DNA of 64,000 nucleotides from Dissulfurispira thermophila (lineage in GTDB: Bacteria > Nitrospirota > Thermodesulfovibrionia > Thermodesulfovibrionales > Dissulfurispiraceae): positions 186,001 through 250,000 of the forward strand of contig NZ_AP022873.1 of the NCBI RefSeq assembly GCF_014701235.1. The letters are read 5' to 3'. The notes beneath the pieces are model-generated. The model was given only the letters and a program-made list of their open reading frames with translations. It did not search any database and was not told where the DNA came from. A program made the translations under genes and the position numbers. Below are positions 5,771 through 55,202 of the stretch, one piece after another (position 1 is the stretch's first letter; every line of letters begins with the position of its first letter).

Positions 5771-5945
5771 TCAACCTATAAAAATGGGGTGAAAGGGAGA
5801 TTTTTAGACATATAACTAATTGAAAATAAATGAAAATCTTGATAGGAGGGCAGCCTAAAAATGCTATGTCAAATAAATCAATAAAATCAATGGATTACGA
5901 ATTTTGTGAAACCTACAATGATGACAAACAAAGGAGGGAGTTCTT

Positions 5946-6617
5946 GTGATTGAGGATCTAAGGAAGACAGACACATGGAGGGTTTTCAGGATTCAGTCAG
6001 AACTTGTCGAGGGCTTTGAAACACTTTATGATATTGGTCCTGCTGTTACCATATTCGGCAGTGCTCGTCTAACAGAGGATTCTTATTATTATCATCAGGC
6101 AATAAAGGTTGGTAAGATGCTTTCTAATGCTGGTTTTTCTATTATTACGGGCGGGGGTCCCGGCATTATGGAGGCAGCTAATAAAGGCGCTAAAATGGGC
6201 AAGAGCAAGTCAATAGGGCTTAATATCCAATTACCTCATGAACAATACCCCAACAAATATCAGGATATTACTATGAATTTCAGATATTTCTTTGTAAGAA
6301 AGCTTATGTTTATAAAATATGCTATTGCATTTGTCATTTTCCCTGGTGGCTTTGGCACAATGGATGAACTCTTTGAGGCATTGACACTTGTTCAGACCGG
6401 TAAGATAGATTCTTTTCCAATAATACTTTTTGGTAAAGACTACTGGCAAGGACTCATTGATTGGATGAAAAACACATTGGTCAGAGAAGGAACCATAGGC
6501 CGTGAAGACTTTGCATTATTTCAGATTGTTGATACTGCAAAAGATGTCTGTGAATTACTGAAAGAGCACTATAGGGTATTTGGAGGTCCTGTGCCAATAG
6601 GGGAGTGTAAGGATTAG
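5946..6617 (+). CDS. LOG-family Rossmann-fold protein (TIGR00730-like)
   Basis: A 223-residue protein with both LOG-family signatures: GGGPGIMEAANKGA (about residues 61-74) and PGGFGTMDELFEALTLVQTGK (about 134-154). Family members hydrolyse nucleoside monophosphates (cytokinin riboside 5'-monophosphate phosphoribohydrolases, or PpnN-like nucleosidases). The old name 'lysine decarboxylase' is misleading. It starts at GTG 5946 behind a strong AAAGGAGGGAG. It converges with trpD, ending 1 bp before trpD's 3' end, so no room for separate terminators exists. The substrate is not determined. Confidence 0.87.
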   Translation: MIEDLRKTDTWRVFRIQSELVEGFETLYDIGPAVTIFGSARLTEDSYYYHQAIKVGKMLSNAGFSIITGGGPGIMEAANKGAKMGKSKSIGLNIQLPHEQYPNKYQDITMNFRYFFVRKLMFIKYAIAFVIFPGGFGTMDELFEALTLVQTGKIDSFPIILFGKDYWQGLIDWMKNTLVREGTIGREDFALFQIVDTAKDVCELLKEHYRVFGGPVPIGECKD

Positions 6618-14699: not shown

Positions 14700-14940
14700 A
14701 TACAAGGCTTTAGGCGGTAGGATTTAGGGTGAAGTGATGAAGTGGTGAAGGGGATAACGCCTTCGGTGATTCAAAGTTGAAGGTTTAAAGTTTAAGATTT
14801 AAGATTTAAAATTCAAGATTGGATTTTATCTTCAGCCTTAAGCTTTAAGCCTTAAGCCTATAGCCTGATCTTCAGCCTTAAGCCTATTTTCCCTCTCCCC
14901 AAAAGGGAGAGGGATTTTTTTAATTTTGTGAAACCCTATA
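14700..14940. repeat. Composite dispersed repeat block
   Basis: The block holds GGCTTTAGGCGGTAGG-type words and AACGCCTTCGGTGATTCAAAG. It also has the 37-bp word at 14802-14838 (exact copies at 5734 and 30631). Repeated CTTAAGCCTTAAGCCTA words follow, then the hairpin CCCTCTCCCCAAAAGGGAGAGGG (14890-14914) running into TTTTTTTAATTTTGTGAAACCC. The last part is the inverted form of the repeat at 41180. No gene is seen between 14940 and 15122 apart from the hairpin copy at 15072. Confidence 0.8.
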
Positions 14941-15071
14941 TTTTTATCCAAAAGGCTATTATTTTTTGTTTAGGTTTTTGGTGAGGCTATTTCCATTAAA
15001 ACAAGGATAAAATGGGTTAAATGATGGTGAAGGGGTGAAGGCGACAGCCTGATTTTCTGGGGCAATAGTTA

Positions 15072-38992: not shown

Positions 38993-41104
38993 ATGTCTAC
39001 CTCTGAAGAATTGATTAATGAATTATCAGACCTCTCTGGCATTATCCCAGAATACTGGGATATATTTGGTAACAAACACACCACCACTATTGAGACAAAA
39101 AAAGCCATACTCAAGGCAATGAAGCTCGATATTGATTCTGATGAGTCTATAAAAAATGAGATATATGCAAAAAAGGCATATCCGTGGAATAGATTTATAG
39201 AGCCCGTAAAGGTTATATCTGTTAATGAACAGCCGTTTAAGGTATCTATTCATGTGCGAGTTGAAAAGGTAGAAGAGGACAGGATATATATTTCATGGGC
39301 TATCAGGAATGAAGAAGGCGAAAAAATAGACAAGTTTATCCTTTCAAGTGATGAGATAACTATCTCAGATGAGAGGTGGATGTATGGCAGAAGATATGTA
39401 AAAATAGACCTGACAGATAAATGCTATAGAGATATAGGCTATTACTCTGTGGATATAAAATTCAAGATTCCTAATGTAGAAATATCAGGCACTTCGAAGG
39501 TTATCATAACCCCAGATTGCTGTTATATGCCTTTAAAATTAAAGGATGCAAAGACATGGGGGATCTCTATAAATCTCTATTCTATACGCTCATGTCAGAA
39601 CTGGGGTGTCGGAGATTTTGGCGATCTCAAAAAGATCGTAAAAATGGTTTCTGAATTAAAGGGCGGATTTGTTGGAATTAATCCACTGCACGCAATTCCA
39701 AACAAAAAACCTTTTGGCATAAGCCCTTATTCTCCAATAAGCAGACTTTATAAAAACTTTATTTATCTTGATATGGACAACATCCCAGAGGTTAGAGAGT
39801 TAGGTAGTCATTCGCCAGTAATGAACAGCCTGATAGATGAATTAAGAAACACTGAATTAATTGACTATGAAAAGGTTGCATCATTGAAGATGTCAGTCCT
39901 TCGGAGTGCATTTGAGGTCTTTTATAAAGAGCATTATCTGAAAGACACTGCTCGTTCAAAAGGTTTTAAAACTTATGTGGCAGAACAAGGCAATAGTCTT
40001 GAATCTTTTGCAGCATACTTAGCAAGTAGCCAATCATCAGCGGCTAACAGTCAGGTAGAGGTCCTTTTTTATAAATATATCCAGTGGCTCATTGAGGAGC
40101 AGTTGAGGGAGGTCTCAGAACTGACGAAAAATCTTGGGATGTCCGTAGGGCTTTACCATGACCTTGCAATAGGTTCAATAGGTGATGGAAGCGATGCATG
40201 GAATTTTCAGGATATTATTGCAAATGAGATAGATCTCGGTGCACCTCCTGATGATTTTAATCCCACAGGACAAAACTGGGGTTTTCCTCCCCTTATTCCT
40301 GATAGGCTTAAGGAATCAAGATATGAATTGTTTATTCAAACAATAAGAAAAAACATGAAACATTTCGGGGCATTAAGAATAGACCATGCCCTTGGAATGT
40401 TCCGACAGTTCTGGATACCAAAGGGTATGTCAGCTTCTCATGGTGCATATGTAAAACAGCCGACAGAGGATTTGCTCAGGATTATTGCGCTGGAAAGTGT
40501 AAGGAATAGCACTATGGTCATTGCTGAAGACCTTGGAACAATAGGAGAAAATGTCAGGGAAACTCTTTTTAGATTTAACATGCTTTCTTATAGGCTTTTG
40601 TATTTTGAAAGGAATTATCCTGACCCTTGTTTTTTGCAGCCTGAAAAATATCCTGAAATGGCATTATGTGCAGTCACAACTCATGATCTTCCCACAATTT
40701 ATGGCTGGTGGATTTGCCGTGATGTTGATCTGAAAAAGAGACTGGGAATATTGCCTGATGAGGGTGTCAAGCAAAAGAGTGTGAGTGAAAGGGAAAGAGA
40801 CAAGTCACTCCTGATAGATGCCCTCAAGTCTCAAGGACTCATTCCTGACACCCATTCATCTTATTTAGATGAAATGACCCCTGAATTATGTATGGCTATA
40901 TACGAATATCTTGCCCGCACACCATGCAAGCTTTTATCTGTAAGTCTCGATGATGTCATTGGCACAATTGATCAGCAGAACATGCCGGGTATAACAGATT
41001 CATATCCGAGCTGGATGCAGAAGACGTCGATAACTCTTGAGCAAATGATTGCTAATAAATGGTTTTTAGCCCTTTCTGAAATGTTTCAGAAAAACAATCG
41101 ATAA
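38993..41104 (+). CDS. malQ: 4-alpha-glucanotransferase
   Basis: A 703-residue GH77 enzyme (amylomaltase). An N-terminal domain of about 180 residues precedes the catalytic part. Visible motifs are SPYSPISRLYKN, GLYHDLAIGSIGDGSDAW (nucleophile Asp region), FGALRIDHALGMFRQFWIP and MVIAEDLGTIGENVRETL (acid/base Glu). It rearranges alpha-1,4-glucans in glycogen or maltodextrin metabolism. A short stretch ASSQSSAANSQVEV (40024-40060) may be repeat-derived. A Pho-box-like promoter begins 15 bp after the stop. Confidence 0.95.
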   Translation: MSTSEELINELSDLSGIIPEYWDIFGNKHTTTIETKKAILKAMKLDIDSDESIKNEIYAKKAYPWNRFIEPVKVISVNEQPFKVSIHVRVEKVEEDRIYISWAIRNEEGEKIDKFILSSDEITISDERWMYGRRYVKIDLTDKCYRDIGYYSVDIKFKIPNVEISGTSKVIITPDCCYMPLKLKDAKTWGISINLYSIRSCQNWGVGDFGDLKKIVKMVSELKGGFVGINPLHAIPNKKPFGISPYSPISRLYKNFIYLDMDNIPEVRELGSHSPVMNSLIDELRNTELIDYEKVASLKMSVLRSAFEVFYKEHYLKDTARSKGFKTYVAEQGNSLESFAAYLASSQSSAANSQVEVLFYKYIQWLIEEQLREVSELTKNLGMSVGLYHDLAIGSIGDGSDAWNFQDIIANEIDLGAPPDDFNPTGQNWGFPPLIPDRLKESRYELFIQTIRKNMKHFGALRIDHALGMFRQFWIPKGMSASHGAYVKQPTEDLLRIIALESVRNSTMVIAEDLGTIGENVRETLFRFNMLSYRLLYFERNYPDPCFLQPEKYPEMALCAVTTHDLPTIYGWWICRDVDLKKRLGILPDEGVKQKSVSERERDKSLLIDALKSQGLIPDTHSSYLDEMTPELCMAIYEYLARTPCKLLSVSLDDVIGTIDQQNMPGITDSYPSWMQKTSITLEQMIANKWFLALSEMFQKNNR

Positions 41105-41118
41105 ATCCTTTCATTGAA

Positions 41119-41163
41119 AATTAACACATCTGTCATATTCTTGTAACATCAATCTTTTATGCT
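41119..41163 (+). promoter_or_regulatory. Pho-box-like promoter 1
   Basis: Heptamers AATTAAC (41119), CTGTCAT (41130) and TTGTAAC (41141) are spaced exactly 11 bp; CTGTCAT is the E. coli PhoB half-site. A -10-like TATGCT begins at 41158, 10 bp after the last heptamer. It precedes the small Cys-rich protein, the EAL/GGDEF gene and the GH1 gene. Confidence 0.75.
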
Positions 41164-41179
41164 AATTTTAAAAAGTTTA

Positions 41180-41275
41180 GGGTTTCACAAAATTAAAAAA
41201 TTCCCTCTCCCTTTTGGGGAGAGGGATAGGGTGAGGGGGGTAAGGATTACGAATTTCGTGAAACCCACAATTTTA
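41180..41275. repeat. Dispersed hairpin repeat inside the 5' untranslated region
   Basis: GGGTTTCACAAAATTAAAAA, hairpin CCCTCTCCC-TTTT-GGGGAGAGGG, a middle part, and an inverted end ACGAATTTCGTGAAACCC. The ends are inverted copies (GGGTTTCAC/GTGAAACCC), so the whole is bounded like a small mobile repeat. Related copies lie at 5650 and 14890. It sits between Pho-box promoter 1 and the gene at 41298. Confidence 0.78.
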
Positions 41276-41297
41276 AAAAGTTAAAAAGGAGGCTACC

Positions 41298-41516
41298 ATG
41301 AAATGCAAATATTTAAATCAATTCCGTCTTTCTGAGTTTGGATGGACTGTGGAATCATGCACAGCAAACGATAGGCCTTATGCACCGAGCATCTCAGAAT
41401 TGCATGATTACTGCAATGGCAATGAAGTCAAGAGATGTCCAGTCTGGCTGAAAAGAGAAGGCTTATATACTGCTTATAGTTCACCGTTCATTGTTGAAAT
41501 TGTTCAAGGTTCATAG
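41298..41516 (+). CDS. Small Cys-containing protein under Pho-box control
   Basis: A 72-residue protein: KCKYLNQFRLSEFGW, ESCTANDRPYAPS, ELHDYCNGNEVKRCP. The four Cys and Y/P spacing resemble small zinc-type proteins of unknown function common in anaerobes. Start ATG 41298 behind AAAAAGGAGG. The C-terminal residues are encoded by GTTCA-rich repeat words, so the tail is probably recruited. It is the first gene after Pho-box promoter 1. Confidence 0.7.
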   Translation: MKCKYLNQFRLSEFGWTVESCTANDRPYAPSISELHDYCNGNEVKRCPVWLKREGLYTAYSSPFIVEIVQGS

Positions 41517-41575
41517 TTCATCGTTGGTTGTTATTATGAACAATGAAGCATAAACTTTTTTCATGGAGGTGTATT

Positions 41576-43432
41576 ATGACTTCAAGGTCGAAATGGGATA
41601 TAACCATAGATGGCGAGGAGTGCATATCCGAAGATAGAAATAGTCCGGATAGGATAGATAGGCAGACCATACTCGAACTTCTTGACAATGATTCGCTCAC
41701 AACCCATTTTCAACCCATATTTTCTGCAAAAGACGGGTCAGTTTATGGTTATGAGGCATTGACGAGGATAAGGGAAAATAAAAATGACATAAACATCAGC
41801 GAGCTGTTTAAAGTGGCAATCCTCACAGATACCATCTCATCCCTCGATGTGAAGTGCAGGGGAAATGCCATAAGTTTAGGGTCTTTATTGGGCATTAATC
41901 ACAAAGGTTCGTACCTATTTATCAATGTATGTCCCGAGGCATTGATGGACCCGGCACACAGTGTTGGAATAACAGATGAACTGGCAGATAAATATGGCAT
42001 TTCGAAAGAAAAGATTGTTCTTGAGATAACAGAAGAAAGCGCCATTCACAATTACAAGCTATTCAACGAGGCAGTTGATTACTATAAAAAGAGAGACTAT
42101 AAGATAGCCATTGATGACTTCGGAGCGGGTTACGGCGGGCTGAAAATGCTCTCGGTGATAGAGCCCGACTTTGTAAAGATAGACCGCCATTTCATATCAA
42201 ATATAGATAAGGCAACTGTGAAGTTCAATCTCGTTGATTCTATTGCATCTGCTTGCCATAGGATCGGCATAAAGGTCATAGCCGAGGGAATAGAGCGGGA
42301 AGAAGAACTCAAAATAGTGATAAATATGGGGATAGATCTGCTTCAGGGGTATTATCTCTACAAGCCATCTCCAATCCTTAATGGTGACAAGGCAGAGATT
42401 TCTATATTCCACAGCAAAAAAGCAAGCTGTTGCTCAACAAGCGCTGAGCAATGCTTTATAGGAGATATTGCAGACAGGGTTGCTCCTATATTACCATCAG
42501 CACATCTTTTGGCTGCTTTTAGTAGATTTATCAAAAACTCTGAACTCAGGAGTCTGCCCGTTGTTGAGGATGAAAGGCTTGTAGGAATGCTGCACAGACA
42601 TAGGTTTTTAGAAAACAATGTGCTTGGTAAATATGGCTATGGCATGCACCTTAATGCTAAGAAATGCATAAGCAACATCATGGAACAGCCGTCACTGATG
42701 GTGGAAGCTAACGTCACACTGGAAGAAGTTGCACAGAGGATACAATCAAGGAAGTCCGAATTTCTTTATGACGACATATGCGTTACAAAGAATGGCAAGT
42801 ATTATGGAATAGTGCCAGTTCATATGCTCCTTGATGCAATAACAGAGAGGAGCCTCATCCTTGCACGTAATGCAAACCCCCTAACAGGTCTGCCGGGGAA
42901 TGATTCGATTCAGCGTGAAATAAATAAAAGGCTCTTGCAGAACATACACTGTGATGTCTGTTACATAGATATAGACAACTTTAAGCCATATAACGACACC
43001 TATGGTTTTGAAAAGGGTGATATGGTTATAAAGACGCTTGCTTGCATAATCAAGGAATCTGTGAGACCGTCTGATTTCGATTTTAGCTTTGTGGGACATA
43101 TAGGTGGTGATGACTTTATAGTGATTACTCCTCCGAAGATTTCAATACCTGTGTGCGAGAAAATAATTTCGAGCTTTGAATCAAATCTTCCGATATTACA
43201 TGGAATGGAAGATTACAATAGGGGATATTATGTTTCTAAAAATAGGAAAAATGAGGAAGAGACTTTTAGGCTATTGTCTCTCTCCATAGGAATAGTCAGC
43301 ACAGAGGTGTATAAAATAAAGTCCTATGCCCAGCTTGCATCAATAGCAACAGAGGTAAAAAAGGCTGCAAAGATGCAGTCTGCCTTAAATGGAACTTCAT
43401 CCATAGCAAGAGACAGAAGGCTGATGGGATGA
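41576..43432 (+). CDS. EAL-CBS-GGDEF cyclic-di-GMP signalling protein
   Basis: A 618-residue cytoplasmic protein. EAL phosphodiesterase domain (about residues 20-260): HFQPIF, YGYEALTR, NVCPEA, LEITEES, AIDDFGAGYGG, VKIDRHF and VIAEGIE...LLQGYYL are all present, so it is probably active. A CBS-like pair (about 270-430) follows with RSLPVVEDERLVGMLHR. The GGDEF domain reads GHIGGDDFIVI (GGDDF), with DIDNFKPYNDTYGFEKGD intact. ATG 41576 is chosen over 41543 because GGAGG lies at 41565-41569. Nucleotide sensing by CBS could set the balance between making and breaking c-di-GMP. It is likely cotranscribed with 41298 and GH1 from Pho-box promoter 1. Confidence 0.92.
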   Translation: MTSRSKWDITIDGEECISEDRNSPDRIDRQTILELLDNDSLTTHFQPIFSAKDGSVYGYEALTRIRENKNDINISELFKVAILTDTISSLDVKCRGNAISLGSLLGINHKGSYLFINVCPEALMDPAHSVGITDELADKYGISKEKIVLEITEESAIHNYKLFNEAVDYYKKRDYKIAIDDFGAGYGGLKMLSVIEPDFVKIDRHFISNIDKATVKFNLVDSIASACHRIGIKVIAEGIEREEELKIVINMGIDLLQGYYLYKPSPILNGDKAEISIFHSKKASCCSTSAEQCFIGDIADRVAPILPSAHLLAAFSRFIKNSELRSLPVVEDERLVGMLHRHRFLENNVLGKYGYGMHLNAKKCISNIMEQPSLMVEANVTLEEVAQRIQSRKSEFLYDDICVTKNGKYYGIVPVHMLLDAITERSLILARNANPLTGLPGNDSIQREINKRLLQNIHCDVCYIDIDNFKPYNDTYGFEKGDMVIKTLACIIKESVRPSDFDFSFVGHIGGDDFIVITPPKISIPVCEKIISSFESNLPILHGMEDYNRGYYVSKNRKNEEETFRLLSLSIGIVSTEVYKIKSYAQLASIATEVKKAAKMQSALNGTSSIARDRRLMG

Positions 43433-43498
43433 AAAATGTTTATAGTTTATGGTTTATAGTATAAGAGGGTCTTATTTTAAGGCATTGAAGGATGAGCT

Positions 43499-44767
43499 AT
43501 GAACAATGAACAAAATACTAAATTCCTCTGGGGTGTTGCCACATCTGCCTTTCAGCTTGAGGGTTCTCCTTATGCTGACTGGACATCATGGGATTCGATA
43601 TTAAATTCAAAGCCTGATGTCACAAACCATTACACCTTATATAAAGAAGACTTGAATTTATTGAAAGATCTCGGTGTGAATGCATATCGCTTCTCTATTG
43701 AATGGAGTAGGATACAACCAAGAGAAAACATATGGGATGAAGCCGCTGTTGCCCATTATCAGGACATAATAAATATCCTTCTTGAAAACAATATAGAGCC
43801 TATGGTCACAATACATCACTTCACGCATCCACTCTGGTTTATCAAAAAATACCCATGGCACAAAGAAGAGTCTATTGAAAAATTTTTGATCTTCGCAGAA
43901 AAGATAGTGTCTATATTAAAGGGCGTGCGATACTGGATTACTTTCAACGAGCCATATGTGCTTATCCTTGCCGGATATTTTGAGGGATGCACACCTCCCG
44001 GCATCAGGGATGTTTCACTGGGATTGAAGGCACTGGAGAATATTCTCATTAGCCACGGGAAAACTTATGATATTATCCATTCAAGAGTCACCGGTCCGAT
44101 GGCTAAGCCTATGGTAAGTGTTGCACACAATATGGCTGCTCTTGCGCCGTGGAACAAATGGAACCCTATGGACAGACTACTGTCCAGCATTGCAAAGCAC
44201 TTTTATAATCACTCCCTTTTAGATGTGTTTATCACTGGCATTCTCAGGGTGAAGTTTCCATTTAAGAAGGCAGTAGAAATTCATGTCCCTATAAAGGATA
44301 AGCTGGATTTCTTCGGTGTAAATTATTACACAAGAATACATATGAGGTTTAATCCTTTTAAAAAGATGGGTATTGAACTGAGACACAGGGATATTGACGG
44401 CTATGGACTTACTGATATGGGATGGGAGATACACCCTCATGGACTTGCAAAGGTGCTGAGATATGCATCAAAACTCAATGTGCCTTTGATAATAACTGAA
44501 AACGGCATTGCTACTCATGACTGTGAGAAGAAGATAAAGTTCATGAAACGTCATGTAGATGTCCTCGAAAGGTGCATCAAAAAAGGCATCGATGTCAGGG
44601 GATATTTCTACTGGTCCCTGATTGACAACTACGAATGGCTTCAAGGACTCGATGCGAGATTCGGTTTATATAAAGTGGATTTTGACACACTCAATCGCAA
44701 GCCTACCAATGCAGCAGCATATTATTCGTATTTGATTAAGAGCAGAGATTTTTATTCTCTAAAATAA
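43499..44767 (+). CDS. Glycoside hydrolase family 1 protein
   Basis: A 422-residue GH1 barrel. Motifs are FLWGVATSAFQLEGS, YRFSIEWSRIQP, ITFNEPYVLILAGYFEG (acid/base Glu in NEP), DFFGVNYYTR and LIITENGIA (nucleophile Glu in TENG), then GYFYWSLIDNYEW. There is no signal peptide, so it acts in the cytoplasm or at the membrane face. GH1 covers beta-glucosidases and beta-galactosidases; plant SFR2, a GH1 member, is a galactolipid transferase. Given the glycosyltransferase nearby, glycolipid metabolism is possible but only inferred. Its 3' end overlaps the hicA pseudogene on the other strand. Confidence 0.88.
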   Translation: MNNEQNTKFLWGVATSAFQLEGSPYADWTSWDSILNSKPDVTNHYTLYKEDLNLLKDLGVNAYRFSIEWSRIQPRENIWDEAAVAHYQDIINILLENNIEPMVTIHHFTHPLWFIKKYPWHKEESIEKFLIFAEKIVSILKGVRYWITFNEPYVLILAGYFEGCTPPGIRDVSLGLKALENILISHGKTYDIIHSRVTGPMAKPMVSVAHNMAALAPWNKWNPMDRLLSSIAKHFYNHSLLDVFITGILRVKFPFKKAVEIHVPIKDKLDFFGVNYYTRIHMRFNPFKKMGIELRHRDIDGYGLTDMGWEIHPHGLAKVLRYASKLNVPLIITENGIATHDCEKKIKFMKRHVDVLERCIKKGIDVRGYFYWSLIDNYEWLQGLDARFGLYKVDFDTLNRKPTNAAAYYSYLIKSRDFYSLK

Positions 44768-44968
44768 ATCCCTTAAACCTGCCTGCTTAAGAATGGATAA
44801 TACTGTCCCCTTTGGCAGATCCTTTTTGTGATAAGGGACAGTGACACGCCTTTTTGTCTGCAAATTGTAATAAACCTTATGACTTCATGTCTGATGGTCA
44901 AACTCAAAGCCGTTTTGTAGCAGAATCTTAATTACATCATCTGGTGTTAATATAGGCAGTTTAGGCAT
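44759..44968 (-). pseudogene. hicA: HicA toxin gene with an in-frame TGA
   Basis: The frame from ATG 44968 reads PKLPILTPDDVIKILLQNGFEFDHQT, then TGA at 44887-44885, then SHKVYYNLQTKRRVTVPYHKK...KGTVLSILKQAGL. It matches HicA over its full length. HicA has Gly-Ser-His here, so one base change (GGA to TGA) just before the catalytic His explains the stop. The start overlaps the hicB stop by 8 bp. The toxin is inactive unless the stop is read through or is a sequencing error. Confidence 0.86.
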
Positions 44969-45194
44969 ACTCTACATTTAATATACTTTCCAGTGTTCTG
45001 GAATCATCCACAATTTCCTCATCATGTTTTTTCATGCTTTCTAAATATGCTGCTATTGCATCCTCAGCCATTTTGACAGCATCTTCTACAGTGTCGCCAT
45101 AAGTTACACATCCTGGTAAAGACGGCACTAAAACAGTATATCCGCCCTCCGGTTCAGGTCTTAAAACAATCCTGAAAGAGAGTTTTGAATTCAT
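44961..45194 (-). CDS. hicB: HicB-family antitoxin
   Basis: A 77-residue protein with the HicB partial-RNaseH fold signature: FRIVLRPEPEGGYTVLVPSLPGCVTYGDTVEDAVKMAEDAI. ATG 45194 (or GTG 45197) lies behind AGAGGAGG. It lacks the C-terminal helix-turn-helix of larger HicB proteins. It precedes the broken hicA and is probably a surviving antitoxin without a working toxin. Confidence 0.88.
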   Translation of the reverse strand: MNSKLSFRIVLRPEPEGGYTVLVPSLPGCVTYGDTVEDAVKMAEDAIAAYLESMKKHDEEIVDDSRTLESILNVEYA

Positions 45195-45256
45195 CACTGC
45201 ACCTCCTCTTTGACAGTTGCTTTTATTTTACCACTTTTATATCCAATTGGATATAT

Positions 45257-45312
45257 TTTTAACAAAACTTTAATCCTCTTTTAATATCCTTGTAACAAGG
45301 AGTGTTTATCAT
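45257..45312 (+). promoter_or_regulatory. Pho-box-like promoter 2
   Basis: Heptamers TTTTAAC (45257), CTTTAAT (45268), TTTTAAT (45279) and TTGTAAC (45290) are spaced exactly 11 bp. TATCAT at 45307-45312 starts 10 bp after the last one and matches five of six -10 bases. It drives the PHP gene and probably the genes to 49908. Confidence 0.82.
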
Positions 45313-45355
45313 GTTAATAGCATGTTTGGAAAATATGTTGATAAATGGTTAATAG

Positions 45356-46045
45356 ATGTTACTGTGTGACTTTCATATCCACACAAAATACTCTGACGGT
45401 TCTGTGGAGTTGAGAAAGACAATTGATCTTTACGGTCAAGCGGGATTTGATGTAATAGCAATAACAGATCATGTGGTCAATGGTGACAACTCTATCGGAA
45501 GGCTCGCCCATCGTTTTAGATTATCTGTGACAGCAGAGAATTTTGATGAATACATATCCAATATAAAATACGAGGCAGAGAGGGCATGGAATAAATATGA
45601 AATGCTCGTAGTACCAGGCGTGGAAATCAGTAAAAACTACATTAATCCTGAAAAATCAGCACATGTGCTTATCATCGATATAAAGGAGTTTATCCCCGCA
45701 TGTATGAACTATGAAAAGATATTCCTTGAGGCAAGACAACAAGACGCCCTTATAGTTGCTTGCCATCCGCACCACATGTCTGATATGAGTAGGGATACCT
45801 TATTTCTTTGGAACAACAGAGGCAAATATGCAAAATACATAGACGCATGGGAGATTGCTAATAGAGATGATGTGTTTAATGTAATCAGTCTTGAGAAATA
45901 CCCTTATATAGCAAACAGTGATTTTCATAAGGCAAGGCACATCTATTCGTGGAAGACGCTTTTAAACTGCGAAAAGAATATTGACTCAATTAAAAAATGC
46001 ATAAGGCATAACAAAGGAGTGGCAATAACACTATTTAGGAATTAA
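45356..46045 (+). CDS. PHP-domain metallo-phosphoesterase
   Basis: A 229-residue PHP-domain protein: CDFHIHTKYSDGS (HxH plus Asp), AITDHVVNG, VPGVEIS, VACHPHH and NSDFHKARH provide the usual trinuclear metal ligands. Family members hydrolyse phosphoesters (for example nucleoside 3',5'-bisphosphates, histidinol phosphate). It has no signal peptide. The ATG has no clear ribosome-binding site. It is 43 bp behind the -10 of Pho-box promoter 2, so a phosphate-scavenging role is likely; the substrate is unknown. Confidence 0.87.
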   Translation: MLLCDFHIHTKYSDGSVELRKTIDLYGQAGFDVIAITDHVVNGDNSIGRLAHRFRLSVTAENFDEYISNIKYEAERAWNKYEMLVVPGVEISKNYINPEKSAHVLIIDIKEFIPACMNYEKIFLEARQQDALIVACHPHHMSDMSRDTLFLWNNRGKYAKYIDAWEIANRDDVFNVISLEKYPYIANSDFHKARHIYSWKTLLNCEKNIDSIKKCIRHNKGVAITLFRN

Positions 46046-46053
46046 CAAATAAA

Positions 46054-46262
46054 TGTCATTGCGAGGGCGAAGTCTGAAGCAATCTCAGAGACGAGATTCC
46101 TCGCGGAGCCTGCCCTGAGCGGAACTACGAGATTCTTCGCTACGCTCAGAATGACAAAAAGCAAAGGGCTCAGACACCGTCCTGAGTGAAACGAAGGAAT
46201 GACAAAAAGCGAAGGGCTCGCAATGGCAGGTTGGAAAAGGTCGGAATGACAGATGGAACAAA
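46054..46262. repeat. GTCATTGCGAGG-type extragenic repeat
   Basis: TGTCATTGCGAGGGCGAAGT, GAAGCAATCTC, GAGATTCCTCGCGGAGCCTG, GAGATTCTTCGCTACGCTCA and GAATGACAAAAAGC. This is a widely distributed bacterial extragenic repeat made of inverted parts. It fills the gap between the PHP and glycosyltransferase genes; no other feature is seen there. Confidence 0.82.
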
Positions 46263-46296
46263 GAGGTAATAACAGATGAGATAAGGAGGAGGAACT

Positions 46297-47553
46297 GTGG
46301 AAATATTCTATGTTTTAGTAGGTTTGACAGTTTTAGGGCTTATAGCATACGGACTACAGATATGGGCAGTGCGATCCACTCTTAAAAAAGGAGATAAGGG
46401 GTTAAGAGGTTTAGAGGATAAGAATAAGTCGATTTCTCAACTTCCCACTATTTCTATCCTCAAGCCTCTCAAAGGACTCGATGACAATTTATTCGACAAT
46501 CTCGCAAGCTTCTGCACACAGGATTATCCAAAATACGAAATCATATTTTCACTTCAGGATCACAATGATCCGGCCTACAAGGTGGCAAGAAAAATAAAAG
46601 ATAAATATCCTGAAAGAGACATTTCAATCATAGTTGAAAGGTGCGATGATGGGTTAAATCCAAAGGTCAATAACTTAATCCCCGCGTATAAGGCATCAAA
46701 ATATCAGTACATACTCATCAGCGATAGCAATGTCATGGTTGATAATAATTACCTCAGAGGAATCGTTAAGCACATGGATGACCCAGATGTTGGCCTTGTG
46801 AGCAATGTTATAAAAGGTATTGGAGGTAGCTCCATTGGCTCAATATTCGAAAACCTTCACTTGAATTCCTTTATTATAGGGAGTGTATGCTTTTTGGATA
46901 GATTTCTGAAAATGCCATGCGTAATCGGCAAATCAATGCTGATGAGGAAGAAAGACCTCGAGGCAATTGGCGGATTCAGGGCTGTAAAGGATGTGCTTGC
47001 AGAAGATTACATCATTGGAAAGAAGATACACAAGAGGGGTAAGAAGGTGGTGCTGTCAAACCATATAATAAAGAATGTGAATGAATACTGGAATATTAAG
47101 AGATTTCTAAACAGACATACCAGATGGGGAAAACTCAGGTGGAGGCTCGGAGGGATTAAATACTTTTCCGAATTGCTCGGTAATCCGGTCTTCATGTCAT
47201 GTCTGGCTATATTACTATGGGAGGTGTCGAGAATAACAATTTCTTTTGCACTCATTGTCAGTTTTGTGAAGATACTTGGTGATTACTACCTCAGCACTAT
47301 AATGAGAAGAAATGAATTCGAAAAAATAGAATCATCACATTCCATAAACTCCATATCGCCATTTTATTATCTGTTGTCACCAATTAAAGACTTGGTCATA
47401 GGGCTTGTCTGGTTTGTGCCAATATTAAGCAATACGGTTGTATGGAGAGGCAATAGATATATAATTGGCAAGGAAACGCTTCTTAAACCTTGTTCTGAAG
47501 CAAATGCATGGAGATACAGGTTTGTTGAGGCTATAAAAACAAAATTCGCATAA
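46297..47553 (+). CDS. GT21-like glycosyltransferase (ceramide glucosyltransferase/HpnI-type)
   Basis: A 418-residue membrane glycosyltransferase. It has an N-terminal membrane segment, then a GT-A domain with PTISILKPLKGLDDNLFDNL, SDSNVMVDNNYL (D-x-D-like), LAEDYIIGKK (catalytic Asp region) and the (Q/R)xxRW motif NRHTRWGKLRW. C-terminal membrane segments follow (VFMSCLAILLWEVS and others). GT21 enzymes make glucosylceramide, and relatives glycosylate diacylglycerol or hopanoids. It starts at GTG 46297 behind AAGGAGGAGG. Its place between PHP and alkaline phosphatase genes suggests phosphate-free membrane lipid synthesis during phosphate starvation (inference). Confidence 0.86.
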   Translation: MEIFYVLVGLTVLGLIAYGLQIWAVRSTLKKGDKGLRGLEDKNKSISQLPTISILKPLKGLDDNLFDNLASFCTQDYPKYEIIFSLQDHNDPAYKVARKIKDKYPERDISIIVERCDDGLNPKVNNLIPAYKASKYQYILISDSNVMVDNNYLRGIVKHMDDPDVGLVSNVIKGIGGSSIGSIFENLHLNSFIIGSVCFLDRFLKMPCVIGKSMLMRKKDLEAIGGFRAVKDVLAEDYIIGKKIHKRGKKVVLSNHIIKNVNEYWNIKRFLNRHTRWGKLRWRLGGIKYFSELLGNPVFMSCLAILLWEVSRITISFALIVSFVKILGDYYLSTIMRRNEFEKIESSHSINSISPFYYLLSPIKDLVIGLVWFVPILSNTVVWRGNRYIIGKETLLKPCSEANAWRYRFVEAIKTKFA

Positions 47554-47570: not shown

Positions 47571-49160
47571 ATGCAGGAATCTAAAAATAAAAATGGAATA
47601 ACCAGGAGAGATGTTTTAAAGGCTGTAGGGATGGGCGCAATTTATTCAATGCTTCCTTATCATGCCTTAAGCAGTGAAAAGGATGATTTCAAAAGGGCTA
47701 ATGGACGGGGGATTATATTCATTGTTGGAGACGGAATGCCTCTCGGAGTTATAAGGGCAATGCATGAGATAAAGACAAGGGTTAATGGGGATGCCGGCAC
47801 ATTTTTTTATAACCGGTTCAATGACAAAAATACACTGCTTTCATTCATGGGGACAAGTAGCCTTTCAAGTATAGTAACTGATTCTGCTCCCGCATCTGTA
47901 GCATGGGCTACTGGCTCAAAGACAGCAAATAGAATGCTTTCTGTTCTGCCAGACGGGAGGCATCTTAAGACTATAGCAGAGCTGGCAAAGGAAAATGGCT
48001 ATGCCTGCGGATTCGTCACTACAACAAGAGTTACCCACGCAACGCCTGCCGCATGGGTGTCGCACAGCGCACATAGAGATAGGGAAGATGACATTGCCCT
48101 TGATTATTTGAAACTCATGCCTGATGTGATACTCGGAGGCGGAAGCAAGCATTTTGATTCCACAAAGAGAAAAGACAGTAGGGACCTATTTAAGGAATTT
48201 GAAACTGCCGGATATGATGTAACAAGGGATAGAAATGGGCTTATATCTCAACAAAAGAGCGAATCCAAAAGACCTCTGCTGGGGATCTTCAACCAGTCTC
48301 ATCTAAGCTACTATGTTGACAGGATTAATAATACGGAATTGGGTGGTAGTCAGCCAACGCTTGCTGAAATGACATTAGTTGCACTAAAAAGGCTCTCAAC
48401 AAATTCCAAAGGTTTTATTCTCCAGATTGAAGCTGGCAGAATTGATCATGCAAATCACTCTAATGATGCGTGGGCAGCAATAATGGACACAAATGAATTA
48501 GATATAACTCTCGGAGTTGTTGAGCAATATCTAAAAGCTAATCCTGATACCCTCGTAATACTCACATCAGACCATGGTAATTCTGGATGGGGGATAAACG
48601 GGACGGGACCTGATTATAATGATGCAACAGAAGCCCTCAAAAAATATACGGGGATAAAGGCGTCTTTTGAGGTTATAAGCAAAAAACTAAAAGGCAAACA
48701 ACCCAATGAGATAAAAGATATTGTTGAGTATTACACATCTTTTAAGATTTATGATAATGAAGCTGCCATGATATACGAGAGCATACAGCCGGGCTATAAG
48801 CCATACCCTTCTGATTTTGTTTATCAGCCGGACGCTACCCTGGGGAAGATATTGTCACACAGTATTTATGAGAAAAACGAAAAGGGGAAGACTAAACTAC
48901 CGGCTGCTTTAAGACGTGGCAATGTAGGTTTTACATCCACCAATCATACAGGAGAGGACCAAATAGTGCTTGCCTATGGAGGCACTGATAGGTTAAATAT
49001 GAGACGGTATGTTGACAATACCGATCTATTCGGAGTTATGTGCGATTATTTGGGCATCAAGCATAGGAACCCTTCAATGAGTGAGAATGAGGCTAAGCCC
49101 TTAGTTAAAACAGCGTCGTGGGATGAGTGGCTCAGGCACATGGAGCTTCATATAGCATAG
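47571..49160 (+). CDS. phoA: Alkaline phosphatase, Tat-exported
   Basis: A 529-residue phosphatase. The twin-arginine signal GITRRDVLKAVGMGAIYSML opens the protein. Then GIIFIVGDGMPLG (metal site), TDSAPASVAWATGSKT (nucleophile Ser), QIEAGRIDHANHSND, LTSDHGN and TNHTGED supply the metal and catalytic residues of the PhoA superfamily. It frees phosphate from organic esters outside the cytoplasm. It lies 17 bp after the glycosyltransferase gene, in the transcript from Pho-box promoter 2. Confidence 0.93.
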   Translation: MQESKNKNGITRRDVLKAVGMGAIYSMLPYHALSSEKDDFKRANGRGIIFIVGDGMPLGVIRAMHEIKTRVNGDAGTFFYNRFNDKNTLLSFMGTSSLSSIVTDSAPASVAWATGSKTANRMLSVLPDGRHLKTIAELAKENGYACGFVTTTRVTHATPAAWVSHSAHRDREDDIALDYLKLMPDVILGGGSKHFDSTKRKDSRDLFKEFETAGYDVTRDRNGLISQQKSESKRPLLGIFNQSHLSYYVDRINNTELGGSQPTLAEMTLVALKRLSTNSKGFILQIEAGRIDHANHSNDAWAAIMDTNELDITLGVVEQYLKANPDTLVILTSDHGNSGWGINGTGPDYNDATEALKKYTGIKASFEVISKKLKGKQPNEIKDIVEYYTSFKIYDNEAAMIYESIQPGYKPYPSDFVYQPDATLGKILSHSIYEKNEKGKTKLPAALRRGNVGFTSTNHTGEDQIVLAYGGTDRLNMRRYVDNTDLFGVMCDYLGIKHRNPSMSENEAKPLVKTASWDEWLRHMELHIA

Positions 49161-49191
49161 ACAACATTTAGATTTATAAGGAGAATTGGAA

Positions 49192-49908
49192 ATGAAAATA
49201 GCTATACTTGGAGACATTCACGGAAATATTGAGGCGCTAAGGACTGCATATGATGCGGCAGTGTCTAATAATGTTGAAAAAATATATCATCTCGGAGACC
49301 TCGGCGGCTATGCGCCCTTTGTAAATGAGGTGGTTGATTTTCTTATTGAACACCAAATCGAAGGGGTTCAGGGCAATTATGACGATGCAGTTGCAAATGG
49401 CAAAGAGCACTGTGGATGCAAATATGAAGACCCGGTTCAGGCAGAGATGGCGACTATGTCATTTGAATGGACAAAAGGACATGCAACTCAGAAGAGCAAG
49501 GACTATATGAAGTGCCTCCCTTTTGATATAGAGTTTTCAGTGCATGACAAAAAGGTGAAGATATTTCATGCCACTCCGCTTAAAAATAACCTTTACTGGC
49601 ACAATGACAGGGATGAAGACTTCTTTCTCCACATGGCAAGAAAGGCGGATGCAGACATCATGATTTACGGACATACGCATATCCCGTACAGAAAAAACAT
49701 CGGCAATAAGGTATTTATAAATGCCGGCAGTGTTGGAAAACCGAAGGATGGAGACGCGAGGACATGTGCCTGCATTGCCGATATTACTCCTGATAATGTG
49801 AAAACAGAGTTTCTAAGAATACCATATGATGTTGAGAAAGTAGCCTCTGCCATCATAGAAAGCGGCATACCTTCATATTTTGCGGAGAGGCTGCGTCAGG
49901 GTAAATAA
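49192..49908 (+). CDS. Calcineurin-like metallophosphoesterase
   Basis: A 238-residue phosphoesterase: ILGDIHGNIEAL, YHLGDLGGYAPF, QGNYDDAV, FHATPL and IYGHTHIPY contain all five metal-binding motifs. It resembles the YfcE/MJ0936-like group. No signal peptide is visible, so it is cytoplasmic. ATG 49192 is preferred over TTG 49186 because of AAGGAG at 49178-49183. It is the last gene of the presumed Pho operon starting at 45356 and overlaps a convergent small gene. Confidence 0.87.
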   Translation: MKIAILGDIHGNIEALRTAYDAAVSNNVEKIYHLGDLGGYAPFVNEVVDFLIEHQIEGVQGNYDDAVANGKEHCGCKYEDPVQAEMATMSFEWTKGHATQKSKDYMKCLPFDIEFSVHDKKVKIFHATPLKNNLYWHNDRDEDFFLHMARKADADIMIYGHTHIPYRKNIGNKVFINAGSVGKPKDGDARTCACIADITPDNVKTEFLRIPYDVEKVASAIIESGIPSYFAERLRQGK

Positions 49909-50216: not shown

Positions 50217-50266
50217 ATTTAACCTCTATTTCATTATCTTGTAACATTTCTCTGTTAAGCTATAGT
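50217..50266 (+). promoter_or_regulatory. Pho-box-like promoter 3
   Basis: Heptamers ATTTAAC (50217), ATTTCAT (50228), TTGTAAC (50239) and a weaker CTCTGTT (50250) are spaced 11 bp. A -10-like TATAGT lies at 50261-50266. It precedes the 55-residue Cys-rich protein. Confidence 0.65.
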
Positions 50267-50299: not shown

Positions 50300-50467
50300 A
50301 TGTGCCCTAACTTTAACAATGGCATTTGCGAGGTAGTTGGTATCGAGCCAGAGGAAATAGGGTGTATCGAGATATGCGCTTGCTACCGCAATAATATGTG
50401 GAAAAATTGTAAGGTCTATATGTTACAGTTTTTTATTTATGGTGATAAAAACCTTGCAGCAGCTTAA
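50300..50467 (+). CDS. Small Cys-rich protein under Pho-box control
   Basis: A 55-residue protein from ATG 50300 behind AAAAAGGAGGG: MCPNFNNGICEVVGIEP, GCIEICACYRNNMWKNC, then a hydrophobic tail. Six Cys resemble small metal-binding proteins seen near pst genes and elsewhere in anaerobes; the function is unknown. It has its own Pho-box-like promoter and its own terminator, so it may be a single-gene unit. Confidence 0.72.
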   Translation: MCPNFNNGICEVVGIEPEEIGCIEICACYRNNMWKNCKVYMLQFFIYGDKNLAAA

Positions 50468-50566: not shown

Positions 50567-50622
50567 TTGTAACGCAAATTTAACATTCCTTTAATATTAG
50601 ATTAACTCAGTTAGTTTATAAT
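50567..50622 (+). promoter_or_regulatory. Pho-box-like promoter 4 (pst operon)
   Basis: Heptamers TTGTAAC (50567), ATTTAAC (50578), CTTTAAT (50589) and GATTAAC (50600) are spaced exactly 11 bp, and a perfect TATAAT (50617-50622) starts 10 bp after the last. This geometry is that of PhoB-activated promoters. The start of pstS is 210 bp downstream. Confidence 0.88.
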
Positions 50623-50831: not shown

Positions 50832-51845
50832 ATGAAGAGGATTTTAGGTTTAATATTAGCACTAACTGTTGTGTTGTCATTTTCTATGGCAAACGCCGAG
50901 GAGACATTGAACGGCGCTGGGGCAACATTCCCGTATCCATTATATTCTGCATGGGCATATGAGTATCACAAAACCACAGGTGTGAAGCTCAACTATCAAT
51001 CAATAGGCTCAGGCGGAGGGGTCAGACAGGTTGTGAATAGGACAGTTGACTTTGGTGCATCTGACGATGCCCTTGAACCTAAAGAGATAGAAAAGGATAA
51101 GCTCCTTCAGTGGCCGCAGGTTATAGGTGGTGAGGTTCTGGCGATAAATGTTTCTGGTATTAAATCTGAGGAAATGGTCTTAGATTCTGATAGCGTATGC
51201 AAGATATTTCTCGGTGAAGTCAAATACTGGGATGATAAAGAGATAAAGCAACTGAATCCTTCCCTTAATCTGCCACATAAGGAGATTACTGTTGTTCACA
51301 GGTCTGATGGATCAGGAACCACCGCAGTTTTTACACATTATCTATCAGAGGCATGTCCTGCCTGGAAAAGCAAGGTTGGTGAGGGCAAATCTGTGAAATG
51401 GCCTGTTGGCATAGGAGGGAAAGGCAATGAGGGTGTTGCCAATTATGTAAAGAGGACACCATTTTCCATAGGCTATGTAGAATTTGCATATGCAAAACAG
51501 AACAAACTCACTTACACGCTTCTTAAAAATCCTGCGGGCAAAGTGATTAGACCGACCCTTGAAACCTTTGCTGAGGCTGCATCAGCGGGTAATTATGACC
51601 CCAAAAAACACTTCTATACATGGGTTACAAATGTAAAAAGCCCTAATGCATGGCCAATTGTTGCTGCTACAAATATCCTCGTACCAAAAGAAAGGGTTGG
51701 AGAAAATAAAAAGGTTGTTAAGTTTTTTGACTGGGCATTTTCTAAAAAGGCAGACGAGATAGCACAAAGTTTGGTTTATGCACCACTTCCAGAAGCATTA
51801 AAAAATAAGATAAGGGCATACTGGAAGGCAAACGGAATATATTAA
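50832..51845 (+). CDS. pstS: Phosphate ABC transporter substrate-binding protein
   Basis: A 337-residue secreted protein. The signal peptide is residues 1-22 (LGLILALTVVLSFSMANA). The phosphate-site signatures are LNGAGATFPYPLYSAW, YQSIGSGGGVRQV, DFGASDDALEP and VHRSDGSGTTAVFTHYL. ATG 50832 behind TAAGGAGG. It is the first gene of pstSCAB-phoU. Confidence 0.97.
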   Translation: MKRILGLILALTVVLSFSMANAEETLNGAGATFPYPLYSAWAYEYHKTTGVKLNYQSIGSGGGVRQVVNRTVDFGASDDALEPKEIEKDKLLQWPQVIGGEVLAINVSGIKSEEMVLDSDSVCKIFLGEVKYWDDKEIKQLNPSLNLPHKEITVVHRSDGSGTTAVFTHYLSEACPAWKSKVGEGKSVKWPVGIGGKGNEGVANYVKRTPFSIGYVEFAYAKQNKLTYTLLKNPAGKVIRPTLETFAEAASAGNYDPKKHFYTWVTNVKSPNAWPIVAATNILVPKERVGENKKVVKFFDWAFSKKADEIAQSLVYAPLPEALKNKIRAYWKANGIY

Positions 51846-51946
51846 TAGTCGATAGGCAAAAGGCTATAGGCGATAGGCAAGAGGATAGTATATAATATAT
51901 GCCTACAACCTATAGCCTATAATTTAATTAAGGAGTTATTATCGTT

Positions 51947-52888
51947 GTGATTTTATTTAAAAAGAAGGATCCCGTCGATTTGATTTTTTCATTCATTACA
52001 GGCATTGCAGCGATTTCTGTTGTCCTGATCATTGTCGGCACATTATATGTGCTTTTTAAAGAATCTTCACTATCAATCGAAAGATTTGGCTTTTTAAAGT
52101 TTATTACATCATTAGATTGGGACCCCGTAAGGGAATCCTTTGGAGCTGCAGCAGCCCTTTATGGAACACTTGTGACAACAGCCTTAGCCCTCATTATTGC
52201 AATACCAGTTGCTATCGGGATTGCAATATTTGTTACAGAGGTTGCTCCCAATTTCCTGAAGGGACCTGTTGGTGTTGCTATAGAGCTTTTAGCAGCCATA
52301 CCAAGCATCATTTACGGCATGTGGGGGCTCTTTACACTCGCACCAATTATGTCAAAATATATAGAACCCTTTTTGCAAAAGACCATCGGTAAATTACCGT
52401 TATTTAACATACTCTTTGAGGGCACTCCACTCGGTATAGACCTTTTGACAGCAAGCATGATACTCGGAATAATGATAATTCCTTTTACTGCAAGCATCTC
52501 AAGGGATGCCTTTAATCTCACACCATCTGTGGTGAAGGAGTCTGCCTATGCAGTTGGTGCAACAAAGTGGGAGGTGGTAAGGGATGTAGTGCTTCCCTAT
52601 TCAAAATTAGGTGTCTTTGGTGGCATTGTTATCTCTCTTGGAAGGGCGCTGGGTGAGACAATGGCAGTTGCCTTTGTCCTTGGAAATAATAATCAGATAA
52701 CCACATCCCTACTCGATGCAGCAGCAACAGTTACTGTGAAACTCGCAAATGAGTTTACAGAGGCAGACAAAGATATTTATCTTTCATCATTATATTATTT
52801 GGCACTTCTGCTTTTTATGGCGAGCTTTATTGTGCTGTCTATTGCAAAGTTCCTTTTATTAAAGGCAGAAAATAAGCTGAAGGCTTAA
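51947..52888 (+). CDS. pstC: Phosphate ABC transporter permease PstC
   Basis: A 313-residue permease with six membrane segments; AALYGTLVTTALALIIAIPVAIGIAIFVTE and PSVVKESAYAVGATKWEVVRDVVLP (EAA loop, in parts) are typical. It starts at GTG 51947 behind AAGGAG. Repeat words of the GGCAAAAGGCTATAGGCG type separate it from pstS by 100 bp. Confidence 0.95.
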   Translation: MILFKKKDPVDLIFSFITGIAAISVVLIIVGTLYVLFKESSLSIERFGFLKFITSLDWDPVRESFGAAAALYGTLVTTALALIIAIPVAIGIAIFVTEVAPNFLKGPVGVAIELLAAIPSIIYGMWGLFTLAPIMSKYIEPFLQKTIGKLPLFNILFEGTPLGIDLLTASMILGIMIIPFTASISRDAFNLTPSVVKESAYAVGATKWEVVRDVVLPYSKLGVFGGIVISLGRALGETMAVAFVLGNNNQITTSLLDAAATVTVKLANEFTEADKDIYLSSLYYLALLLFMASFIVLSIAKFLLLKAENKLKA

Positions 52889-52918
52889 GGAAGGGCAGAG
52901 GACAGAATATGACAGAAT

Positions 52919-53779
52919 ATGGAGGATAGAAGGCAGATGAACCGCGAGAAATTCAGGATTATACAGAGCCGCATTGCTTTTATTGTTAGCACTCTTACTG
53001 CCATGTTTGGTATTTTCTGGCTTATATTCATTATCGGCGATGTCCTTGTTCATGGCATAGGTGCACTGAATATAAATTTATTCATAAAAGACCCCGCCCC
53101 TGCGGGTGTTGAGGGAGGGGGCCTCAGAAATGCCTTTGTGGGTCATTTGATGATAACCTTCTTTGCAACATTGATTGGTGTCCCTGTGGGTGTGCTTGGC
53201 GGGACATTCCTTGCAGAATATGCAAGAGGCAAAAGGATCGCACGATTCATAAGCATCCTTTCTGACATAATGGTCAGCGTTCCAGCCATTGTGGTTGGCA
53301 CTTTTGTATATGCCATAATAGTGAAACCAATTGGTCATTTCAGCGGTTGGGCTGGGGCTGTTGCACTGGCAATGATAATGATTCCTGTGGTGGTGAGGAC
53401 AACAGAGAATATGCTTTCACTTGTATCCTGGACAGTCAGAGAGGCTGCCTTTGCATTAGGAGCTCCTTATTATAAGGTCATCATACAGGTTGTTTACAGA
53501 GGGGCAGCCACGGGTATCTTGACAGGCATACTTCTTTCTATTGCGAGGGTTACAGGTGAGGCAGCACCACTTTTGTTCACCTCCTTTAATAACTCATTCT
53601 TTTCTGCTAATATGAATGAACCAGTAGCTTCGCTTACTGTATCGATATTTCAATATGCCATGGGTCCTTATGAAAGCTGGCACGCCCAGGCATGGGCAGC
53701 AGCATTAATGATTACTGTATTTATTCTTTTCATCACAATCATTGGCAGACTCATCATAAAATGGAGGTACAAAAAGTGA
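52919..53779 (+). CDS. pstA: Phosphate ABC transporter permease PstA
   Basis: A 286-residue permease: [30 protein letters not shown] and [25 protein letters not shown] (in parts). Start at ATG 52919; ATG 52937 (MNREKF) is an alternative. Its first codons fall in a repeat-like stretch (CAGAGGACAG...GAAGGCAG). It overlaps pstB by 4 bp. Confidence 0.95.
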
Positions 53780-54540
53780 CAGAGCATATAGAGATTGAGG
53801 TTAGAAATCTCAACTTTTATTATACTGGCAATATCCACGCCCTGAAGCAGATAAACCTCTCTGCTTATAGGCATAATGTTATAGCACTCATAGGTCCTTC
53901 GGGTTGTGGCAAAACAACGCTCCTGAGGTGTTTTAACAGAATGCATGACCTTTATCCTAAAAACAGATATGAAGGCGAAATAATCTTTCAGGGTGCAAAT
54001 ATCCTTTCTAACAATATTGACATCATTGACCTCAGGAGCCGGATTGGAATGGTCTTTCAGAAACCCACTCCATTCCCTATGACTATATTTGACAATATTG
54101 CATATGGTCTCAGGCTGAAGGGCGTTAAAAATAGGTCTGAACTCTCTGAAAGGGTAGAAAGGGCACTCAAAAATGCAGCACTCTGGGGTGAGGTAAAGGA
54201 CAAACTAAATGTCAGTGCCTATGAGCTTTCGGGTGGACAACAGCAAAGACTTGTTATCGCAAGGGCATTGGCTGTTGAGCCTGAAGTCCTCCTTTTTGAT
54301 GAACCCACCTCAGCCCTTGATCCCATATCCACTGGCAAGATAGAAGAACTCATAGTTCAATTAAAGAGCAAAGTTACGATAATTATCGTCACCCACAACA
54401 TGCAGCAAGCAGCCCGAATCTCTGACTGGACAGGGTTTATGATGCTCGGGGAATTGATTGAATTTGACAAAACAGATAAGATATTCACAGCCCCCTCTGA
54501 AAAGCTTACAGAGGACTATATCACAGGGAGGTTTGGATAA
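53776..54540 (+). CDS. pstB: Phosphate ABC transporter ATPase
   Basis: A 254-residue ATPase: Walker [21 protein letters not shown], signature [15 protein letters not shown], Walker [14 protein letters not shown] and the switch His in [13 protein letters not shown] 53776 is chosen because GGAGG (53763-53767) lies 8 bp upstream, and GTGA overlaps the pstA stop. ATG 53761 is in frame but has no ribosome-binding site. Confidence 0.96.
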
Positions 54541-55202
54541 TGACCAGGTTTGATGAAGAATTGACCAGTTTAAAAGAGATGATACTAAAAATGGGAGCAT
54601 TAGTTGAAAGTTCTATAAAAGATTCTGTTAGATCTCTGGTAGAAAGAGACGATGCACTTGCAAGAACTATTATAGAAAGAGACCATGAGATAAATGCCCT
54701 TGATGTGCAGATAGATGAGGAATGCATAAGGCTCATAGCGCTGATGCAGCCTATGGCTGGAGACTTGAGATTTCTGACAACGGCAATGAAGATAACCACA
54801 GACCTTGAAAGAATGGGAGACAATGCTGTAAATATAGCAGAAAGGGCTTTAGAGCTAAACAGAGAGCCAATCCTCAAGCCTTATATAGACATCCCTCACA
54901 TGAGCCAGATAGCCCAGGGGATGACAAGAGATGCACTTGATGCATTTGTAAAAAAAGATAAAAGACTTGCAATGGATGTAATCATGAGGGATGATGAGGT
55001 AGATGACCTTAAATATGGAATACTTGAAGAATTAATATCCTATATGATCAGGGATCCAAATACAGTATCAAGGGCAATGAAGATTAGCTTTGTTGCGCAG
55101 TATCTGGAGAGGATCGCTGATCACGCCACTAATATTGCTGAGATGGTCATATATCTTGTAGCTGGAAAGATCATAAGGCATATGGCTTTGCCTAAAGAGT
55201 AG
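54540..55202 (+). CDS. phoU: Phosphate signalling regulator PhoU
   Basis: A 220-residue all-helical protein made of two PhoU repeats: [16 protein letters not shown]...[28 protein letters not shown] and [19 protein letters not shown] (metal-binding E/DxxxD), with [14 protein letters not shown]. It links PstSCAB to the PhoR sensor, which is not in the window. It overlaps pstB by 1 bp. Its 3' end overlaps the cheB remnant on the other strand. Confidence 0.95.

Follow-up and report, generated by a model that had tools for sequence, protein, structure and literature searches.

A RapA-type EAL-CBS-GGDDF gene of Dissulfurispira thermophila and its predicted place in the Pho regulon

Analysis of 64,000 nucleotides of the D. 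thermophila chromosome (contig NZ_AP022873.1, positions 186,001 to 250,000; hereafter the window) identified an EAL-CBS-GGDDF gene downstream of a strong Pho box. With high confidence we assign its product to the Pho regulon as a RapA-type enzyme that would be expressed at low phosphate and hydrolyse c-di-GMP. The features of the promoter and of the presumed operon are as follows.

41120-41148, + strand: Pho box of three direct repeats with an 11-bp period, detected with two matrices and conserved before orthologues
41158-41163, + strand: candidate -10 hexamer TATGCT, spacing and sequence matching promoters of relatives
41164-41282, no strand assigned: MITE-like insertion with terminal repeats GGGTTTCAC/GTGAAACCC (41180-41266)
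41298-41516, + strand: small ORF for a mini-protein with four cysteines, at the head of the presumed operon and with orthologues in the same position in relatives
41576-43432, + strand: EAL-CBS-GGDDF gene (618 aa), RapA-type c-di-GMP phosphodiesterase and possible cyclase according to Pfam, catalytic residues and fold model
43499-44767, + strand: GH1 glycosidase, 66 bp after the EAL gene and likely co-transcribed

The promoter and the Pho gene cluster

The Pho box consists of the units ATTAACA (41120), TGTCATA (41131) and TGTAACA (41142). TGTAACA-type repeats with an 11-bp period are found in the pstS promoters of relatives. A matrix was trained on 29 of these promoters, with the own genome omitted, and run over the 64-kb window. 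It ranked the site at 41131 first with 20.6 bits, followed by the promoter regions at 50579/50568 (16.4 bits), 50229 (16.3 bits) and 45280/45269 (13.2 bits). All four regions fall within a stretch of Pho-related genes at 41-51 kb, and the highest score outside them was 7.5 bits. An E. coli-type Pho matrix, composed from published sites, also placed its top site of the window here (41130, 18.3 bits; runner-up 13.9 bits). The distance from TAACA to TTTATGCTAA, as well as the sequence, is shared with the pstS promoter of one relative (G006) and the orthologous promoters of two others (G001/G002). The first-pass annotation had pointed to a Pho-box-like promoter near 41119, and the three-unit box followed by a -10 hexamer bears this out. 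No Pho site preceded five other GGDEF/EAL genes of the same genome, which reached at most 2.0 bits, and no Rfam RNA family was found in 40800-46000. A genome-wide pattern scan that allowed three mismatches gave mostly chance matches (157, and 113 with the pattern reversed).

The same annotation had taken this promoter to be the only visible one, which is unprovable because a weak sigma-70-like site (9/12 matches, with a TG extension) is located at 41510-41537, immediately before the EAL gene. Such a site might provide the main, phosphate-independent promoter of the EAL gene, leaving the Pho box to serve the small ORF only. However, seven sigma-70-like matches were found in the region where 7.8 are expected by chance, and in five relatives that lack the small ORF the Pho box stands directly before the EAL gene (G007, G008, G019, G051, G039). 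We therefore regard a separate main promoter as improbable.

Between the Pho promoter and the small ORF lies the MITE-like insertion, flanked by a 14-bp duplication (AATTTTAAAAAGTT at 41164-41177 and 41269-41282) and forming a strong hairpin (z -3.6). It is absent from the orthologous promoters of four relatives (G001, G002, G024, G006), and it could weaken or redirect transcription from the Pho promoter. Further copies, with flanking target duplications of about 12-14 bp, occur near 5648-5950 and 14890-14945. The mini-protein encoded by the small ORF had no Pfam or NCBIfam match. It has four invariant cysteines (C3, C21, C39 and C47) in the pattern C, C, YxP, C, CP. Relatives of this protein, often downstream of a Pho box, are encoded directly upstream of pstS (G002, G007, G034), of PstS-like genes (G003, G005), of a pstB-like ABC ATPase gene (G010) or of a response-regulator gene (G006). 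Besides the window, the mini-protein was noted at the loci L221, L222, L225, L226, L229 and L230. The mini-protein is possibly a metal-binding accessory of Pho operons.

The remainder of the cluster comprises the following features.

45258-45301, + strand: second Pho box array with an 11-bp period (pstS-matrix sites 45258, 45269 and 45280), before the PHP-GT21-phosphatase genes
45356-46045, + strand: PHP-domain phosphoesterase (Pfam PF02811), preceded by a Pho box in many relatives
46297-47553, + strand: GT21-family glycosyltransferase, HpnI-like but under the HpnI cut-off
47571-49160, + strand: alkaline phosphatase (Pfam PF00245)
49186-49908, + strand: calcineurin-like metallophosphoesterase (Pfam PF12850)
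50229-50250, + strand: Pho box (pstS matrix) ahead of a small Cys-rich ORF (50300-50467)
50568-50600, + strand: Pho box array upstream of pstS (pstS-matrix sites 50568 and 50579)
50832-55202, + strand: pstS, pstC, pstA, pstB and phoU (NCBIfam/Pfam)

The neighbouring GH1 glycosidase, already named in the first-pass annotation, was confirmed by Pfam (PF00232). The units of the second array are TTTAACA, TTTAATC, TTTAATA and TTGTAACA. The PHP-GT21 pair behind a multi-unit Pho box (45258-47553) recurs in relatives and is a candidate for a low-phosphate exchange of phospholipids for glycolipids, with the PHP enzyme replacing PlcP. The 55-aa Cys-rich ORF at 50300-50467, which differs from the four-Cys one, is preceded by a separate Pho box at 50229 and by a good ribosome site. 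With the general PhoBR/PstSCAB-PhoU regulon the locus shares direct repeats with an 11-bp period, pst genes and alkaline phosphatase, whereas the units of the Dissulfurispira lineage are TGTAACA-like rather than CTGTCAT. A PhoB-like and PhoR/PnpS-like gene pair is located at 2.02 Mb of the genome; the best PhoB match (262.6 bits, cut-off 296.2) and the PnpS/PhoR matches (367.8, cut-off 400, and 294.1, cut-off 334.2) were just under the curated cut-offs.

Conservation among relatives

The protein was present in 26 of 60 sampled relatives (E<=1e-40). The first-pass annotation had proposed examining gene order in relatives, and the order proved to be conserved: over 36 loci, GH1, PHP and GT21 genes recurred as neighbours at 21, 16 and 15, respectively, and pst or phoU genes were found inside the examined stretch at 14. 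In-line operon links occurred as pstC-pstA-EAL (L135, L136) and as EAL-pstB (L045, L046, L048, L052; the latter two from Magnetominusculus), and in Candidatus Magnetobacterium casense (L056) a PstS-like gene is located directly ahead of the EAL gene. The GH1 gene is directly adjacent in most relatives, and two of them have a separate Pho box before it (G011, L045); this conserved neighbour may be linked to surface glycans. At three loci (L123:14000-18177, L118, L121) genes for an MCP chemoreceptor, a PsiE protein, a histidine kinase and a single-domain response regulator are added, several of them behind a Pho box; the N-terminus of this kinase is similar to the CBS pair found in the c-di-GMP enzyme.

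Of 31 orthologue loci, 20 had a site scoring 9 bits or more in the 500 bp upstream of the gene, compared to 38 of the 341 other genes at these loci (p 7e-11, indicative only because the genomes are related and hence not independent). The best site of the locus, within the surrounding 5 kb, was located upstream of the EAL gene at 18 of 32 loci; 200 column-permuted matrices gave a mean of 1.9 and a maximum of 7. No nearby box was found for several orthologues (G011, G020, G027, L047, L049).

That the likeness to a Pho box arose by chance in an AT-rich intergenic region has some footing in the rest of the genome, where isolated sites of 18-20 bits occur at 689 kb (inside a gatA-like gene) and at 819 kb. 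However, position and units of the box are conserved in relatives, and the controls with permuted matrices and other genes argue strongly against chance, which we consider extremely improbable. Since the top-ranked site is followed by a -10 hexamer, and since relatives have retained this site, the order of the genes or a direct operon link with pst genes, Pho control of the EAL-CBS-GGDDF gene is, judged from sequence, very likely.

The EAL-CBS-GGDDF protein and the direction of its activity

The start codon at 41576 is preceded by a GGAGG ribosome site, whereas an alternative in-frame ATG at 41543 is not. Pfam assigned residues 30-264 of the 618-aa protein to an EAL domain, two stretches from residue 296 to a CBS pair and residues 435-521 to a GGDEF domain; this order, also seen in the fold model, is that of the RapA-type EAL-CBS-GGDEF family. 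Similarity to gammaproteobacterial EAL-CBS-GGDEF proteins is collinear over residues 30-600, approximately (about 29-38% identity). The AlphaFold model had a mean pLDDT of 83 and a pTM of only 0.54, so that the domain folds are reliable and the arrangement of the domains is not. Among the best 50 matches listed in a fold search of the PDB, all were through the EAL domain and none was an EAL-CBS-GGDEF structure.

The first reading of the sequence had described the EAL residues as intact and the cyclase site as GGDDF. Accordingly, all ten catalytic EAL residues are present (E60, R64, N117, E150, D180, D181, K201, E237, E240 and Q257), and the cyclase site reads GHIGGDDF. The EAL set is complete in 25 of 27 Nitrospirota members, with damage in the other two, and in all 61 homologues from other phyla. 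GGDDF, with D as the fourth motif residue instead of the E of GGDEF, is invariant in 88 homologues, and the metal- and GTP-binding residues are present. Further motifs conserved throughout the family are FKP[YF]ND and an NPL[TS]xLPGN-type motif. The homologue comparison revealed no family-wide conservation of the inhibitory RxxD I-site, and in some relatives EAL and CBS-GGDEF are encoded by separate genes.

RapA of Pseudomonas fluorescens is expressed through a Pho box when phosphate is low, and its depletion of c-di-GMP leads to detachment (PMC3032545). Its homologue in P. aeruginosa (PMC12900916; also PMC9394441), the EAL-CBS-GGDEF protein PA3258, is an apparent phosphodiesterase and shows residual cyclase activity once its EAL site has been inactivated (PMC12900916). 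Compared by published description, RapA of strain Pf0-1 and the gene at 41576-43432 both represent the EAL phosphodiesterase type with a Pho box, and PA3258 has the same domain order as the window protein; the literature found reports no phosphate control of PA3258. By its domain order and Pho box, the window protein thus has the architecture of RapA and, by sequence, its control. The Dissulfurispira gene differs from RapA in belonging to another phylum and in lying within a Pho cluster, with the four-Cys ORF ahead and GH1 after it; some relatives have it in series with pst genes, others as two genes for EAL and for CBS-GGDEF. The c-di-GMP enzymes AcgAB of Vibrio cholerae may likewise be under PhoB control (PMC12351708).

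From the intact EAL residues and the analogy to RapA and PA3258 we infer that the net activity is c-di-GMP hydrolysis. Alternatively, the gene might belong to the Pho regulon while its product serves chiefly to make c-di-GMP as a diguanylate cyclase, or is a receptor binding c-di-GMP or GTP, so that low phosphate would raise or relay c-di-GMP. The conserved GGDDF and accompanying motifs, the residual activity of PA3258 and the two members with damaged EAL residues are in line with this, but the nearly universal EAL set and the lowering of c-di-GMP by RapA speak for hydrolysis, and we judge a mainly synthetic or receptor role unlikely. As GGDDF is invariant, the I-site is not conserved and the genes are split in some relatives, the protein may be a conditional cyclase, with net synthesis in certain circumstances.

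The CBS pair had been taken for an adenine-nucleotide-type module sensing energy state. CBS domains as a class are capable of binding adenosine ligands (PMC8846402), and the ribose/phosphate-binding motif G-x-x-[ST]-x-x-[DN] is kept in CBS2 of 23 of 61 homologues from other phyla. However, the motif is missing from both repeats of the window protein (GMLHRHR and GIVPVHM) and from CBS2 in 26 of 27 Nitrospirota orthologues. AMP/ATP sensing is thus not supported, and coupling of energy state to c-di-GMP turnover through the CBS pair appears rather unlikely.

RapA-type genes in other phyla and the proposed phosphate response

In Pseudomonadales, RapA-type genes occurred in 56 of 245 genomes. Of 30 such genes, 25 had an E. 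coli-type site scoring 10 bits or more upstream, compared to 2 of 40 other GGDEF-EAL genes drawn from this genome sample, and the locus-best site was upstream in 22 of 30 and 4 of 40, respectively. The reversed-matrix control was dropped in this group because CTGTC is unchanged on reversal, and column-permuted matrices together with the other GGDEF-EAL genes took its place. Among relatives of Geobacter, a site was found for 6 of 12 RapA-type genes and for 11 of 111 other genes.

In Bacillota the E. coli-type matrix gave no site (0/14), but the Bacillus-type box did match: the exact repeat TTHAYA-N5-TTHAYA was present within 250 bp of 7 of 14 genes, compared to 2 of 207 other genes. A fresh sample of 30, which included several close relatives, had matches of at least 11/12 in 26 cases and exact ones in six (28 and two, respectively, for the 207 other genes of the first sample). 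Many members of this sample carry an additional N-terminal region of about 180 residues ahead of EAL-CBS-GGDEF, possibly a sensor domain (noted for most of the Bacillota homologues at L271-L298). Clear E. coli-type sites were missing in Magnetococcales (1/6) and Desulfobulbaceae (0/3). No match was obtained when ten non-Nitrospirota genomes were searched for pstS, and so no lineage-specific matrix was trained there.

With Nitrospirota, Pseudomonadales, Geobacter relatives and Bacillota each placing the Pho box of their own lineage before the gene, RapA-type enzymes are probably a dedicated phosphate-starvation output of c-di-GMP signalling across much of the bacteria, the wiring being either very old or repeatedly rebuilt. 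Our literature search found no paper stating Pho control as family-wide for RapA-type enzymes.

We propose the following sequence of events in D. thermophila, for which we infer PhoB binding and the phenotype. When external phosphate falls, PhoR would phosphorylate PhoB, which would bind the box of three units (41120-41148) that substitutes for a -35 element. The transcript would begin near 41170 and cover the four-Cys gene, the EAL-CBS-GGDDF gene and probably GH1. The intact EAL domain would then hydrolyse c-di-GMP, and as its level drops, cells may no longer spend resources on adhesion or matrix and may detach or start to move. The CBS pair and the GTP-binding GGDDF domain would most likely tune the EAL domain or provide a conditional cyclase. 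Several PilZ matches in the genome represent possible c-di-GMP outputs.

Among the many enzymes of c-di-GMP turnover, few have an identified input signal. For the subfamily that includes PA3258 and the Bacillota homologues, promoter and genome context suggest phosphate starvation as the input, which is open to direct testing in cultured strains. The single gene would be a further RapA-type case; the predicted family-wide Pho wiring is the less expected result. Taken together, the promoter sequences point to a conserved phosphate-to-c-di-GMP wiring across phyla, and the link looks far wider than the one proven case. For uncultured Nitrospirota, magnetotactic ones included, this yields a specific hypothesis on the conditions under which cells leave surfaces.
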